A stretch of DNA of 64,000 nt from Streptomyces sp. NBC_01235 (lineage in GTDB: Bacteria > Actinomycetota > Actinomycetes > Streptomycetales > Streptomycetaceae), in NCBI RefSeq assembly GCF_035989285.1, contig NZ_CP108513.1:186001-250000 (forward strand), in the 5' to 3' direction. Of this stretch, positions 2,427-48,894 are shown piece by piece (position 1 is the first letter of the stretch; every line of letters begins with the position of its first letter). Both the position numbers and the translations under genes were made by a program. The notes beneath the pieces are model-generated. The model did not search any database and was not told where the DNA came from. It was given only the letters and a program-made list of their open reading frames with translations.

Positions 2427-4400
2427 GTGAACGCTCCAGGACGTCAGGAACCCTCCGACGCGCACAGGACCGGCCCCACCGGACCGGTGTCCCGTCGCGG
2501 GATACTCAAGGGAGCGGCCGTCACCGCGTCCGCCGCCGCGCTGGGCATCGTCGGCACGCGTCCGGCCGCCGCCGAGGCAACCGACGCCTCGGTCACCGCG
2601 ACCTCGCTCGACGGCACCACCACCATCACGATGTCGCTCATCGGAGGTGCGCTCCAGTGGTCGGCCAGACGCAACGGCACGACCGTGATCGACACCTCGG
2701 CCCTCGGTCTGCGGCTGAGCGACGGAAGCACCCTCGGCACCGGCGCCGTGCTGACGAACTATCAGCACTGGCACATCGACACCACCTGGAAGCCGGTGTA
2801 CGGGCGCAACGCGACGGTCTCCGACACCTACCAGGAGATGCGCTGGAACCTCCGGGACACCAGCACCTCCATCAACTTCGCCGTCCAGATCCGCGCCTAT
2901 GCGTCCGGCGTGGCGTTCCGCTACGTCCTGCTCGACCCGGGCACCGCCGCGATCGCCGACGAACTGACCACGTTCGTCTTCCCCGACAGCACGCTCGTCT
3001 ACAGCGCACGCGACGAGGACTCGTACAACCCGGTCGCCCCGGGTTCGATCCCGTCCACCGGGACCTCCTCCACGGACAACGGCCCTCTGACCGACCTGCC
3101 CCTGACCGCCACCGTCGCCGACCAGCTCATCGCCTGTGTCTGCGAGTCGTCCCGCCTCGACTACCCGCGGCTGATGCTCAGTTCCGTCCCCGGAGAGCCC
3201 AACACCCTCGCGGCCTACCTGATGCGGCACACGGCCCGCGGCTCCGACACGGTCCAGACGACCTCCACGGTCAGGACACCGTTCGCCACGCCGTGGCGCG
3301 CGGTCGTGATCGGCTCCACCCACGCCGAGCTGGTCGACAACGCCGAACTGGTGCTCAACCTGGCCCCGGCCTGCGCCCTCGCCGACACCTCGTGGATCAC
3401 ACCGGGCAAAGCCTTCCGCTGCAATCTGACCACCGCCGACGGACTGGCGGGCGTCGACTTCGCCGTCGCCCGTGGCCTGCAGTACATCGAGTACGACGCC
3501 GGGTGGTACGGGCCGGAGACCACCACGACCGACGCGACGCAGTCGATCTCCGCCATCGACATGCCGGCGGTCATCTCCCATGCGGCCGACCAGGGGATCG
3601 GCCTCATCCTCTACGTCAACCGCATCGCCCTGAGCGACCCGGACTCCCTGTTCGCCCTCTACAAGAGCTGGGGCGTCTCAGGTATCAAGCTGGGCTTCAT
3701 CAGCGACGGCACACAGGCGATGACGAACCGGATCACAGGCTGGGCCAGGACGGCGGCCCAGCACAATCTGCTGATCGACATGCACGACGACGTACGACCG
3801 TTCGGTTACGAGAGGACCTACCCCAACTGGGTCAGTCTGGAGGGGGTGCGGGGCAACGAGCACTTCCCGACCGCCACCCACAACGTCACACTGCCCTTCG
3901 CCCGCAACATCGGCGGGCCGATGGACTACACCATCTGCTACGGCCAGTCCCGCGACCACACGACCAACGCCCACCAGATGGCGATGGCGGCCGTGTACTA
4001 CCAACCCCTCAACTTCCTGTACTGGTACGACACGCCGTCGAAGTACTCCACCCCCTCCAAGTGGCCCGGGCTGCCCTGGTTCGACACCGTCCCCACCGTC
4101 TGGGACCAGAGCACGACGCTCACGGGTTCGATCGGCGAGTACATCGCCGTGGCCCGGCGCAGCGGCACCACCTGGTACCTCGGGGCGATGACCAACGAGA
4201 CCGCCCGGACCCTGTCGCTCCCGCTGTCCTTCCTCGGCAGCGGCACCCACACCGCGACGATCTACGCCGACGGAACCCCTGGAAGCAGCCCTTACCAGAC
4301 CCCCGTTGTCGTGAGCACGCAGACAGTTACCTCGGCGACCACACTGACCGTGACGATGACCGCCGCGGGCGGCCAGGCCGTCGTCCTCAAGCCGAACTGA
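2427..4400 (+). CDS. Exported GH97 glycoside hydrolase (alpha-glucosidase/alpha-galactosidase family)
   Basis: About 657 residues from the GTG at 2427, chosen because GAGGGAGAGG lies 10 bases upstream; the frame is open further upstream without a better site. A Tat signal (SRRGILKGA, then an Ala-rich core) shows export. The N-terminal beta-sandwich (~35-300), central TIM barrel (~310-560) and C-terminal beta domain (~570-657) follow the family plan. In the barrel, YIEYDAGWYGPE and LEGVRGNEH are family landmarks. The strand that carries the nucleophile Asp in retaining members reads GIKLGF here, with Gly, as in the inverting SusB-type branch. That favours an inverting alpha-glucosidase, but this is inference. 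It calls for calcium-assisted catalysis, as in known members. Confidence 0.85.
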   Translation: MNAPGRQEPSDAHRTGPTGPVSRRGILKGAAVTASAAALGIVGTRPAAAEATDASVTATSLDGTTTITMSLIGGALQWSARRNGTTVIDTSALGLRLSDGSTLGTGAVLTNYQHWHIDTTWKPVYGRNATVSDTYQEMRWNLRDTSTSINFAVQIRAYASGVAFRYVLLDPGTAAIADELTTFVFPDSTLVYSARDEDSYNPVAPGSIPSTGTSSTDNGPLTDLPLTATVADQLIACVCESSRLDYPRLMLSSVPGEPNTLAAYLMRHTARGSDTVQTTSTVRTPFATPWRAVVIGSTHAELVDNAELVLNLAPACALADTSWITPGKAFRCNLTTADGLAGVDFAVARGLQYIEYDAGWYGPETTTTDATQSISAIDMPAVISHAADQGIGLILYVNRIALSDPDSLFALYKSWGVSGIKLGFISDGTQAMTNRITGWARTAAQHNLLIDMHDDVRPFGYERTYPNWVSLEGVRGNEHFPTATHNVTLPFARNIGGPMDYTICYGQSRDHTTNAHQMAMAAVYYQPLNFLYWYDTPSKYSTPSKWPGLPWFDTVPTVWDQSTTLTGSIGEYIAVARRSGTTWYLGAMTNETARTLSLPLSFLGSGTHTATIYADGTPGSSPYQTPVVVSTQTVTSATTLTVTMTAAGGQAVVLKPN

Positions 4401-45159: not shown

Positions 45160-45654
45160 GGTGGCTACATCTGTTTCGAGGACGAGGCAGGCTTCACCCG
45201 GCGGCCGCCCAAAGGACGCCCTGGGGCCGACGCGGAGTGACTCCGCAGGTGACGGTGAGCGGGCGACGTTCAGGACGTCTGTCCGTGGCCGGGCTGATCG
45301 CCATGCGGCCCGGCTCCCGGACCCGGCTGTGCCACCGCCTGCGCACTCACCCCTCGGGCAACGGAAAACGTCGCAGCATGGGAGAGCGCGACCTCATCGC
45401 GCTGATCTACGGCACCCACCAGTTCGTCAAGGCGTCGATCGTGCTGGTGTGGGACCGCCTGAACACCCACGTCTCCCACGCTGTGCGTGAGCTGATCGCC
45501 GAGCGCGAAGGGGTGACAGTGTTCCTGCTACCCGCCTACTCGCCCGACCTCAACCCCGTCGAGGGCGTATGGGCGCACGTCACACCGGCCAGACACCCTC
45601 GACGGCTGCATCACAGGAACCGGCCTCGCCCTCGGCATCCCTGCAACTCCCTGA
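45160..45654 (+). mobile_element. IS630-family transposase remnant
   Basis: Reading begins GGYICFEDEAGFTRRPPKGR (first catalytic Asp in EDEAG) and shifts frame at about 45238. It continues RRSGRLSVAGLIAMRPGSRT, GERDLIALIYGTHQFVKASI and VLVWDRLNTHVSHAVRELIA (second Asp), then SPDLNPVEGVWAHV (Glu). After an internal deletion it ends RPDTLDGCITGTGLALG. The N-terminal DNA-binding domain is missing. Inactive. Confidence 0.85.
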
Positions 45655-45690
45655 CCAGCCGAAGTCGCATAATGCCGGGCAGTCCGCCGG

Positions 45691-46482
45691 ATGACAGGAG
45701 ACGCTGATGCAGTGAATCAGGTGCAGGAGATCGTGGGGCTGGTCGGCGGTGTGCTGGGCCAAGATGTCATCGGCACCTACCTCCACGGCTCCTCCGTGCT
45801 CGGCGGACTCAGGCCTGCCAGCGACGTGGACGTACTGGTCGTCTCCCGGCGGCGAATGGACGAGCAGGATCGACGGACACTCCTCGGTGGACTCCTCCGG
45901 ATCTCCGGCTCCCGAAACAAGGTCCGCCCGGTCGAGCTCACCGTGGTCGTCCAGTCCGAGGTCCGGCCGTGGCGGTACCCGCCGACCGGCGACTTCCTCT
46001 ACGGCGAGTGGCTGTGTGCGGAGTACGAGGCCGGGGAGGTCCCCCAGCCGGAGCCGATGCCCGATCTGGCCCTGCTGATCACTATGACGCTGACCGGCGA
46101 CCACCCCCTCACCGGCCCGCGCCCGGCGCAGGTCCTCGACCCGGTCCCGCAGACCGACCTGGTCCGGGCGAGCGTGGCGGGTATCCCCGGCCTGCTCGAC
46201 GACCTGGACAGCGACACCCGCAACGTCCTGCTGACCTTCGCCCGCATCTGGACCACGCTCGCCACTGGCCAGATCAAGTCGAAGGACGCCGCCGCCGACT
46301 GGGCGCTCGCCCAGCTCCCGCCCGAGCACCGCCCCGCCCTCGAGCACGCCAGGCAGCTTTATCTCAACTGCTCCTACTCCGAGGAGAGCTGGAGTGATGC
46401 GTTGAAGGCGCAGGTGTGTCCGCATGTGGACCGCGTGCTCGCTGAGATCGACCGGCTGCGCGCCCGAACCCAGCGGATGTGA
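45691..46482 (+). CDS. Aminoglycoside nucleotidyltransferase (AadA/ANT(3'')-ANT(9) type)
   Basis: A 263-residue enzyme. The nucleotidyltransferase core reads [20 protein letters not shown] followed by DVLVVSRR, i.e. GSxxxGxxxxxSDxD with both metal Asp. [17 protein letters not shown] supplies the third acidic region, and the C-terminal helical domain contains [30 protein letters not shown] and NCSYSEESW. The length matches AadA (~260). It would adenylylate streptomycin/spectinomycin-type drugs. ATG 45691 gives the family length; a GTG at 45712 with AGGAG upstream is an alternative start. It lies between IS630 and integrase remnants, implying past mobility. Confidence 0.85.
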
Positions 46483-46906: not shown

Positions 46907-47341
46907 ATGGCATCGATCAAGCAGTTCCAAGTCACCTTCGACTGCGCAGAACCTGAGCGCGTCGCTCGTTTCTGGTGCGAGGTGTTGGGATACGTCGTAC
47001 CGCCGCCACCGGAGGGGTTTGCCACTTGGAACGATTTCGATCGCGCACTGCCCCCTGAGCGTCAGGGTTCGGCGTTCGCGTGCATTGATCCCTCAGGTGT
47101 GGGCCCGCGACTGTTCTTCCAGCGCGTTCCCGAAGGCAAGGTCGTCAAGAATCGGCTGCATCTTGACGTGCGGGTCGGCACCGGGCTCGTGGGTGAAGAG
47201 CGCGTGGCCGCACTTGAGGCCGAATGCGCACGACTGGTCGCGCTCGGCGCGGTACGCGGGCAGCTACTGCTTGCCGATGGATTCAACGAGTCGTGCCTCG
47301 GGATGCAGGACGTCGAGGGCAACGAGTTCTGTCTCGACTGA
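46907..47341 (+). CDS. VOC-superfamily (glyoxalase-like) protein
   Basis: A 144-residue protein of the glyoxalase/bleomycin-resistance fold: [62 protein letters not shown] and [20 protein letters not shown]. His and Glu metal ligands can be placed at LHLDV and EGNEFC. A TACGAT -10-like box (46895-46900) ends 6 bases before ATG 46907 and no ribosome site is present, so the mRNA is probably leaderless. Codon use is slightly lower in GC than its neighbours. The substrate is unknown. Confidence 0.88.
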
Positions 47342-47473
47342 GTGGCCGCGAACGCGGCACCTTCGCGAGCCGACCGGTGCAGTTCGCCATCAGTACCTGT
47401 TTCTGATCTGGGACCGGTGACGAGCTGGTGGACGACTCGTTGAGCCGACATGATCGATGGTGTGACGGATCTC

Positions 47474-47583
47474 GATGATCGATTCCAAGGGGTTTAGTGG
47501 TCGTCGGCGGTCAGTGCGCGCATGACCGGCCGGCCGCGCATGAACCTGGCTCCACTCATCGGGCCCCCTTGGAATCGATCATC
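47474..47583 (-). mobile_element. 110-bp MITE-like element, left copy
   Basis: Bounded by perfect 19-bp terminal inverted repeats GATGATCGATTCCAAGGGG (47474-47492) and its complement (47565-47583). Inside, the minus strand has a ribosome site and a 21-codon ORF (47559-47494, MSGARFMRGRPVMRALTADD then His and stop) that looks like the start of a transposase. It ends 12 bases before the methyltransferase start. An inverted copy lies on the other side of that gene. The structure fits an internally deleted insertion sequence. Confidence 0.8.
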
Positions 47584-47595
47584 TAGGCTGGCGCG

Positions 47596-48447
47596 GTGAC
47601 TGATGAGCAGGAGCGGGTGCAGCCGTCGGGAGTGTGGGCCACGGCGGTGGGGGTGGCCAGGGTGCGGGCGCTGGAGACCGAGCGGGAGAACGCGCTGTTC
47701 CGCGACCCACTGGCACAGGCCTTCGCCACCGCCGGCGGCCTGGGGCCCTCCTCGCCGCCGCTGCCCGGTGACGAGGCCGCGCGACGCCGCCGGCTGGCCG
47801 TGTCGTTCTCCATCGTCATCAGGACCAAGTTCCTCGACGACCTGTTGCAGCAGGCCTCCGCGTCCGGGGTCCGGCAGATCGTGCTGCTCGGCGCCGGCAT
47901 GGACAGCCGGGCCTTCCGGATGGACTGGCCCGAGGGCACCCGGCTGTTCGAGGTCGACACCGCTGCGCCATTGGACTTCAAGGCTTCGGTGCTGCGCCAG
48001 GAGCGGGCCGTCGCACGCTGCGAGCGGATCACCGTCGCGGTGGATCTGCGTGAGGACTGGCCAGGCGCGCTGGCCGCCGCAGGGCACGACCCGGCGGTGC
48101 CGACCGTGTGGATCGCCGAAGGACTGCTGATCTATCTGCCCGAGGACGCGGTGGAGCTGCTGCTGGCCCGGATCAGCGCGCAGTCGGCGGCAGGCAGTCG
48201 GATGGGGCTGACGTTGGGCTCGCGCGGCGTGATCGAGCGCTTCGGCGCGGACGCCGTGCCGGGATCGGCGGCGTCCATGTGGGTTTCGGAGATGCCCGAC
48301 GACCCGGTGGGCTGGCTGGCCGGGCACTGCTGGGAGGCCGACAGCCACACCCTGCGCGAGCGCGCTGCCGCCTACGGCCGCCCGATCAGCACCCCGCCGC
48401 AGCGCGAGGAGCGGCCCGGCGGACTGATCTCGGCGGTCCGCCGGTAG
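47596..48447 (+). CDS. SAM-dependent methyltransferase, PPM/LCMT-like (TIGR00027 type)
   Basis: A 283-residue methyltransferase. RVQPSGVWATAVGVARVRAL and ENALFRDPLAQAF open it; motif I reads IVLLGAGMDSRAFRMDWPEG, followed by TRLFEVDTAAPLDFKASVL, TVAVDLREDWPGALAAAGHD and the post-II segment WIAEGLLIYLPEDAVELLL. These are the hallmarks of the leucine-carboxyl-methyltransferase-like family abundant in mycobacteria and streptomycetes, whose substrates are mostly unknown. Start GTG 47596 lies 12 bases from the MITE end; no ribosome site is visible, so leaderless translation or a promoter within the element is possible. It is flanked on both sides by inverted copies of the element. Confidence 0.88.
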   Translation: MTDEQERVQPSGVWATAVGVARVRALETERENALFRDPLAQAFATAGGLGPSSPPLPGDEAARRRRLAVSFSIVIRTKFLDDLLQQASASGVRQIVLLGAGMDSRAFRMDWPEGTRLFEVDTAAPLDFKASVLRQERAVARCERITVAVDLREDWPGALAAAGHDPAVPTVWIAEGLLIYLPEDAVELLLARISAQSAAGSRMGLTLGSRGVIERFGADAVPGSAASMWVSEMPDDPVGWLAGHCWEADSHTLRERAAAYGRPISTPPQREERPGGLISAVRR

Positions 48448-48466
48448 AGCGCCTCCCGGTTCCCTG

Positions 48467-48562
48467 GATGATCGATTCCAAGGGGGCCTGATGAGTGGAG
48501 CCAGGTTCATGCGCGGCCGCCGGTCATGCGCGCGCTGACCGCCTACGACCACTGAACCCCTT
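48467..48562 (+). mobile_element. MITE-like element, right copy, inverted and truncated
   Basis: Reads the reverse complement of the left copy from GATGATCGATTCCAAGGGG (48467) through to CCCCTT (48562), about 95 percent identical (four substitutions and one deletion by eye), then diverges before completing the outer terminal repeat. The internal mini-ORF is frameshifted here. Confidence 0.8.
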
Positions 48563-48894
48563 GCGCAACATTCCAGGTTCCAGCCCGTCGTGGCGCCCGG
48601 ACGGGCGGCCGACGGCGGTGGCCCGGGCGTACCGCCGCGGCTGCGAGTGCCCGCGCCGATCGGCCTGCGTCCTGATCGTGCCGCCGACCGCGCTGCTCGT
48701 GCGGGCCCCGTGGCGCGGCGGTCCGAGCGGCTGACCAGCGGACGGCGTCCCGCCGAGTGGTGTAGCCAGTCAAGGGTCGTGAACGCTCAGGTGTCTGCCC
48801 GGGGCGTGACCCCGTGTGAGTGACTGCTCCCCAAACAAGGGCAGGCCATCGCGCAAGTCGCCCTGGTGAACGGGCGGTTCGACCGTGGGAGCGC
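48563..48894. other. Gene-free stretch, 332 bases
   Basis: No gene recognised between the truncated MITE copy and the IS256 remnant; it may contain old IS sequence. Confidence 0.4.

Follow-up and report, generated by a model that had tools for sequence, protein, structure and literature searches.

A Streptomyces methyltransferase gene between inverted IS982-derived mini-elements: a probable non-autonomous mobile insertion cassette

Introduction

Insertion sequences (ISs) that carry passenger genes are known as transporter IS (tIS). A group of Streptomyces IS982 elements described below resembles the tIS in bearing non-transposase genes between terminal inverted repeats (TIRs). The cassette that is the subject of this work differs from tIS in that it lacks a transposase and has its gene flanked by two elements, not enclosed in one.

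Mobile insertion cassettes, of which MIC231 of Bacillus cereus and mic-qnrD are examples, consist of a passenger between inverted repeats and have no transposase (PMC3913671). The locus described here is like them in having autonomous IS relatives, and a short target duplication is the expected trace of movement (PMC3913671). It departs from MIC231 and mic-qnrD in that each end is a whole 110 bp element with TIRs on both sides and not a single TIR; in addition, the ends belong to the IS982 family, a methyltransferase gene is carried, and the arrangement is found at numerous loci and in numerous species.

In Acinetobacter, MITEs that flank class 1 integrons have been proposed to behave together as a composite transposon, with target repeats (PMC3934969 and PMC10969869). 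There too, two copies of a mini-element bracket the cargo. However, the Acinetobacter elements are 439 bp in length, lie in the same direction and enclose whole integrons, whereas the elements described here are 110 bp, inverted, and enclose one Streptomyces gene. Near-complete copies of the 110 bp element, unlike the Acinetobacter MITEs as these sources portray them, are found only beside the gene or its remnants. The pAC3 mobile insertion cassette of Aeromonas likewise brings a cassette and a MITE together (PMC5444012), but there one MITE is inside, whereas here two bracket the gene.

The principle is already known from mobile insertion cassettes and MITE-flanked integrons, and the examples drawn on here are mainly resistance genes or come from Bacillus (PMC3913671, PMC3934969, PMC10969869, PMC5444012). 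A survey of titles and abstract openings, with most subscription journals outside it, found no report on elements of this kind, on MITE-bounded cargo or on mobile insertion cassettes in Streptomyces. Also not found described, in a search mostly at the level of titles, were an IS982 origin for such a unit, a single gene bracketed by complete inverted mini-elements, the host group, the breadth of occurrence and the passage into ISL3. The present locus suggests that single metabolic-type genes move between actinomycete species in transposase-free packages.

Structure of the locus

The window, i.e. the whole stretch of 64,000 nucleotides analysed, consists of positions 186001–250000 of an 11.09 Mb Streptomyces genome assembled in one contig (G000:C1). 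Features of the locus are listed in Table 1.

Table 1. Features of the methyltransferase cassette and its immediate surroundings (positions in the window)
Feature	Position	Strand	Description
Context A	47391–47473		~83 bp of another small repeated sequence, in which the cassette is inserted; sharp left edge CAGTACCTG
Left mini-element	47474–47583	+	110 bp, IS982-derived, perfect 19 bp TIRs
Outer TIR, left copy	47474–47492	+	GATGATCGATTCCAAGGGG
Inner TIR, left copy	47565–47583	−	
Inner left junction	47583–47586		CTAG, the usual target of the IS982 group
Putative −10 box	47584–47589	+	TAGGCT, 6 nt ahead of the GTG start
Methyltransferase gene	47596–48447	+	283 aa, TIGR00027/LCM (PF04072)
Inner right junction	48464–48467		CTGG in the window; CTAG in G370 and G033
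Right mini-element	48467–48563	−	Inverted, 95% identical, outer TIR lost
Inner TIR, right copy	48467–48485	+	

The initial annotation reported a complete LCMT-type methyltransferase gene between a 110 bp element with perfect 19 bp terminal repeats and an inverted copy with ~95% identity. The gene and the left element are as it described them. The right copy does have this orientation and identity, but it aligns to bases 13–110 of the left copy (95%, E 4.3e-37 in a whole-genome search) and is thus without the outer 12–13 bases, a loss that had not been stated and by which its outer TIR is destroyed.

A genome-wide search with the 110 bp element shows these two copies and no third among the 40 of 55 candidates that were scored. 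The 18-base core of the TIR, with up to three mismatches allowed, is seen three times in the window; shuffled sequence gives an expectation of 0.01. This excess and the E-value of the genome match rule out chance as the source of the repeats. Single-stranded folding gives z = −5.20 for the left copy and z = 0.07 for the stretch with the right copy (48463–48562).

Context A is present in 10 of the 138 distinct loci assembled below, and the sequence to the left of it diverges among the loci compared. Used as a query, context A matched G000 at 233391–233475. No IS982 or ISL3 transposase match was found around the locus in the window, and the outer CTAG of the unit is mutated or lost. Since the right outer TIR is lost, and only the left 110 bp element keeps a proper inverted pair of TIRs, the composite in the window probably can no longer move as a whole and is stranded in context A.

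Two neighbouring genes may be mentioned. A gene with an AadA_C (aminoglycoside adenylyltransferase) domain, at 45691–46482, slightly overlaps the preceding open reading frame of an IS630-type transposase fragment (45237–45707). A Glyoxalase_6 gene (46907–47341) is upstream of the cassette and has many relatives in the genus; the relative in G146 (L069) is ~2.4 kb downstream of the methyltransferase gene and in the opposite orientation.

Origin of the 110 bp element

The 110 bp element is short, non-coding and bounded by TIRs, as MITEs are, and the initial annotation treated it as an independent MITE. It was searched for in 392 genomes of the genus (E 0.001), with two candidates scored per genome, so that the counts are lower bounds. 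At least 95 of the genomes have a match, many of these being weak and short, and at least 19, which include G000, have two matches in opposite orientation that are 930–993 bp apart. The full gene is present at 27 of 31 loci with element matches (two of the 27 are the window's own), pieces of it at three, and none of it at one. Near-complete copies without an intact gene were found in G380, G038, G221 and G104; all four touch gene remnants, and so does a partial copy of 43 bp in G069. As G000 has two copies and the gene-free near-complete copies all adjoin remnants, a free-living MITE family is rejected.

Repeats that never occur apart from the gene had been considered by the initial annotation to speak against a mobile unit. 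This is nearly the situation for the element as a whole, but its halves do occur apart, as IS982 ends: ~63 bp from its beginning and, in G367, the final 48 bp. Gene-free matches cover about half of the element. Those confined to approximately bases 1–63 are the ends of IS elements which, where they can be delimited, are mostly 0.9–3 kb in length and have the same TIR and a transposase of ~304 aa. This half matches the side of the IS982 element where the transposase gene has its 3′-end. The best gene-free match to bases 1–63 (94%, G055:C1) is to an IS982 element with a pentapeptide-repeat passenger (L048). For bases 63–110, the best gene-free match, also 94%, is at ~4142–4188 in G367:C148 (L356), at the end of an IS982-type element; the reading frame that precedes it ends, by eye, like the pentapeptide protein of L048, and there are transposase pieces nearby. 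Because the two halves match opposite ends of pentapeptide-type IS982 elements, the 110 bp element is apparently, to judge from the alignments, a pentapeptide-carrying IS982-family element from which the middle was deleted.

The ends of the unit, 110 bp and 97 bp, are too short to contain a transposase gene, and in this respect the unit is not a composite transposon. Mean identities of the repeats at 17 loci (left–left 0.857, right–right 0.898, left–right within a locus 0.884 and between loci 0.872) give no clear verdict on a single origin of left and right repeats. One of the 19 genomes with two opposed matches, G306 (L349), has half-elements only; they form an inverted pair ~1 kb apart with a remnant of an IS982 transposase and no methyltransferase match.

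The methyltransferase gene and its putative promoter

The gene is an open frame that begins with GTG. Its product scores 193.3 bits against PF04072 (LCM; cut-off 22.3) and 268.1 bits against TIGR00027 (cut-off 93.55). The solved relatives are ML2640 (2ckd) and Rv0731c (6id6), both of which are named putative SAM-dependent methyltransferases. We infer methyltransferase activity of the gene product.

It had been proposed that the left copy, which ends 12 bases before the start codon, might drive the gene. The sequence TAGGCT presumably fits the −10 box of leaderless-type Streptomyces promoters. It is likely to be such a box and to belong to the gene module, where it is mostly kept when the repeat is missing, and the proposal is not borne out in the form in which it was made. 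The 13-base leader with TAGGCT is alike in 41 of 44 repeat-less copies (≥90% amino acid identity), whereas bases −26 to −14 are alike in only 5 of these 44 and in 58 of 72 copies with a left repeat. The comparison is ungapped, and only the −26 to −14 bin is used, as the bases from −39 to −26 match poorly even where the left repeat is present (9 of 72). The downstream edge is less sharp; the 15 bases after the stop codon are alike in 15 of the 44 repeat-less copies. Scans for E. coli-type sigma-70 promoters and for terminators yielded nothing.

The full composite at unrelated sites

The full composite, 1,103 bp from outer TIR to outer TIR, is present without interruption in G370 and G033, and the flanks at the two sites are non-homologous. 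Between the two loci, blast homology covers positions −125 to +989 relative to the gene start and ends at the outer TIRs. In G033, CTAG is found at all four junctions, and thus on both sides of the unit, where it may be the trace of a target duplication. The view of the initial annotation that repeats and gene are a mobile unit is supported in part: the gene with its inverted repeats does occur as a unit at unrelated loci, but the copy in the window has lost one outer TIR. The search for the unit elsewhere that it recommended did find different loci, but no empty site for the full composite. It should be pointed out that G370 and G033 are the only two among the 138 distinct loci that have bases 1–110 at both ends and both outer TIRs without interruption, which counts against the composite model.

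No empty target site was found for the G033 composite in 100 genomes, where G016 matched the left flank only (84%), for context A in 295 genomes, where G151 has just the first 64 bases, or for the flanks of the window's unit in 174 genomes, where the right flank matched only G000 among the matches listed. Two Streptomyces plasmids, NZ_CP108366.1 and NZ_CP109357.1, have the 1.09 kb unit at 98%. In the gene, and for 150 bases to either side of it, both agree with G370 without a difference; this stretch takes in some 18–28 bases of outer flank.

A different fate is seen in L193 (Streptomyces noursei A-2-1). There, a sequence with coding that by eye is IS630-like has entered the inner left CTAG at its TA and separates the left repeat from the gene; the cassette retains its two outer ends.

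Distribution of gene and repeats

At E 1e-90, with six candidates scored per genome, the gene is found in at least 85 of the 392 genomes and at no fewer than 87 places. Of these places, 81 were carried forward, the window's own among them (those in G103, G208, G259, G314 and G376 and the place in G055 were left out). To these were added 80 named loci kept from 341 relatives, which belong to Streptomyces, Kitasatospora, Streptacidiphilus, Actinacidiphila and one unclassified actinobacterium, and six plasmid loci. The resulting set of 167 loci was reduced to 138 distinct loci by removal of 29 duplicates.

A repeat is present on at least one side at 82 of the 138 loci (both sides 39, left only 33, right only 10) and on neither side at 56. 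Classified by their flanks, 29 loci have ISL3, 10 have context A, 44 are others with a repeat, and 55 have none of these. Surroundings mostly differ: flanks of 1,500 bases, taken from 300 bases out on the upstream side, form 121 groups among the 138 loci, and on the downstream side (2.8–4.3 kb from the gene start) 130 loci give 118 groups, both numbers being threshold-dependent.

The 44 repeat-less copies do not share their near flanks, except for one cluster of 10 upstream and 9 downstream. Since repeat-less copies are at many separate places and seldom keep bases −26 to −14, the gene also moves, or is rearranged, without these repeats. Both outer flanks of one host locus are common to seven loci that lack the repeat (L104, L130, L151, L154, L170, L175 and L240). 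The upstream group of this host locus has 12 members, and one of them, L062, has the repeat. Between L104 and several other members the host flanks are mostly ~75–87% identical and the gene ~92–96%. Neighbours of the gene in L240 resemble, by eye, a padR-type regulator and a phzF-type gene; the gene may have resided at this host locus for a long time, or the locus may be a hotspot. Synteny of the gene without repeats in relatives was another situation in which the initial annotation would have doubted a mobile unit. These seven loci do show it, but the other loci mostly differ.

On the gene tree, context labels change 55 times compared with a mean of 67.4 in shuffles (lowest 57), a weak clustering on a poorly resolved tree; the resolution is too poor for transfers to be counted, and the count gave no result. 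Other inverted repeats were looked for in the non-repeat class, where pairs scoring ≥16 were found at 5 of 57 loci as against 30 of 773 shuffled pairings. Three of the five (G033, G390 and G003) are repeat copies, and the remaining two are G045, which has ISL3 ends, and G326. In G326 (L110), the gene lies between inverted repeats of another kind, 31–32 bp in length and 94% identical, and no IS982 repeat was found at this locus. In G300, copies of the gene with the same score are near both ends of the contig (C1:60376–61221 and 8851158–8852003) in opposite orientation, as is expected of terminal inverted repeats. No difference is seen between them in the gene or in the 150 bases to either side.

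Exchange between species

The gene passes between species. In tblastn comparisons of 30 genomes, the gene has a median dS of 0.097, as compared with 0.247 for recA, and the lower value in 407 of 435 pairs; the 30 genomes were picked from the 85 with the gene, mostly as strong matches, and the choice favours similar gene copies. Divergence of recA and that of the gene show no positive correlation (Spearman −0.10). Its median dN/dS is 0.29 (recA, 0.086). Selection for the protein seems to maintain the gene.

ISL3 as a second vehicle

The ISL3 flank noted at 29 of the distinct loci was assigned to the ISL3 family by a profile match of the copy in G122. In G193, the gene and truncated repeats lie between inverted ISL3-type ends together with an ISL3 transposase gene. 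The gene in G045 is also between ISL3 ends, and there is no ISL3 transposase match at this locus. Unoccupied ISL3 left ends are found at a minimum of 13 places in 199 genomes, with at least 128 of 151 bases aligned across the junction and 69–89% identity (four candidates were scored per genome, and seven of the thirteen places were aligned). G161 has both states, an unoccupied end in C29 and an occupied one in C39.

At the 20 ISL3-flanked loci with repeats on both sides (e.g. L052, L055 and L056), no repeat reaches the first 9 bases of the element. The left repeats begin at base 17 in 8 of the 20, and the right repeats at base 20 in 12 of the 20. This regular absence of the outer TIRs is unaccounted for by transposition via those TIRs.

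A possible helper element

The unit has a passenger between inverted repeats, no transposase inside, and ends that match an autonomous IS. The transposase of one relative scores 184.9 bits against the IS982 profile (NF033520; cut-off 130) and 37.2 bits against IS5 (cut-off 110). Autonomous IS982 relatives have the same TIR as the cassette and CTAG at their junctions. Identical 4 bp flanks were flagged at 12 of 31 IS982 loci with a pair, by an automatic pairing that is sometimes wrong.

G000 itself contains a matching IS982 element of 992 bp at 1,307,634–1,308,626, with a perfect left TIR and three mismatches in the right TIR. Its open frame (1,307,702–1,308,604) is 77% identical to the query transposase, and the element is a possible helper for the cassette. 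At E 1e-60, an IS982 transposase is found in 12 of 20 gene-bearing genomes, and some of these are partial or have stops, which counts against the proposal. With a cassette that has one intact mini-element and a matching IS982 element in the same genome, mobilization in trans is directly testable in a soil bacterium. A more distant IS982-type transposase match (54%) is located at G000:C1:173403–174284, ~12 kb before the window.

Mechanism and alternative explanations

The unit is probably a non-autonomous mobile insertion cassette, similar to a composite transposon, which an IS982 transposase would move in trans. Two internally deleted 110 bp elements of the IS982 family would have landed, in opposite orientation, at CTAG sites close to an LCM-type methyltransferase gene, one on its upstream and one on its downstream side. 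The outermost TIRs would then serve an IS982 transposase supplied in trans, and the whole package of ~1.1 kb would be moved to new CTAG sites. The cassette would also have been taken up by an ISL3-family IS, with which it is found in many genomes. The copy in the window would have been inserted in the small repeated sequence and stranded afterwards, when the right outer TIR was lost. We infer that the unit moves by transposition, that the IS982 transposase brings this about and that the unit arose from two separate landings.

One may ask whether the repeats are only passengers of a frequently exchanged accessory gene, which homologous recombination and several unrelated ISs move about, the repeats having been inserted once and hitch-hiking since. 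We consider this improbable, although it would explain why 56 of the 138 loci have no detectable repeat and why the flanks of the 44 copies of this kind are mostly unshared, and it agrees with the weak clustering of context labels on the poorly resolved tree (55 against 67.4 changes), with the ISL3 flank at 29 of 138 loci and with the conserved padR-like/phzF-like host locus, which carries the gene without repeats. It does not agree with a homology between G370 and G033 that ends exactly at the outer TIRs, nor with CTAG at both outer junctions in G033. The ISL3 flanks, and the genes between ISL3 ends in G193 and G045, might also be taken to mean that the vehicle is an ISL3-family transporter IS with a methyltransferase passenger, in which case the IS982-type repeats would be leftovers and the unit in the window a relic of it. 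This is very unlikely, as intact composites exist outside ISL3. No ISL3 transposase match was found near the gene in the window, G370 or G033, and a query with the ISL3 end gave no match in G000 (4 of 23 candidates scored); both outer IS982-type TIRs are present in G370 and G033 and the left one in the window, and none is present in the two-sided ISL3 copies.

Least credible of all is a resident gene that never moved and is flanked by chance by two independent MITE insertions. CTAG-like sites do flank each repeat, as two landings would give. However, the arrangement and its inner junctions recur at different places in many genomes, and in 407 of 435 pairs recA is more diverged than the gene. 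At the level of the family, chance flanking is refuted by the arrangement common to different loci.

Passenger genes of the IS982 relatives

The IS982 relatives point to a passenger-rich group of elements. Twenty-nine TIR-bounded IS982 elements were picked via matches to the window's repeat and TIR, and the census is biased to that extent. Three of them, ~990–1,000 bp in length, have the transposase only, one is a remnant of 559 bp and one is probably mispaired; the remaining 24 carry other genes, of 16 kinds. Twelve of the 16 kinds have a Pfam match above the cut-off: zinc-type alcohol dehydrogenase, DUF1203, hexapeptide transferase, alpha/beta hydrolase, PAF-acetylhydrolase-like hydrolase, NUDIX, M15 peptidase, mycothiol-S-transferase, DUF4440/SnoaL-like, HEAT-repeat protein, DNA polymerase III beta-like protein and pentapeptide protein. 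Among the other kinds, two have no Pfam match and one is below the threshold, and L279 has a hydrolase-like gene with a glyoxalase-like gene.

Perhaps the Streptomyces IS982 lineage is a general system of gene capture and delivery, in which at least 16 unrelated kinds of genes have been placed between one set of TIRs and the transposase is shed as mini-elements and small cassettes are formed. The methyltransferase cassette might then be its most widespread product, one that reached ISL3 and many other contexts owing to an advantage that the gene gives to its hosts. This broader idea is a tentative one, and we lean somewhat against it. One element of the group, at positions 1464–3680 of L042, is of the IS982 type and carries the DNA polymerase III beta-subunit-like gene.
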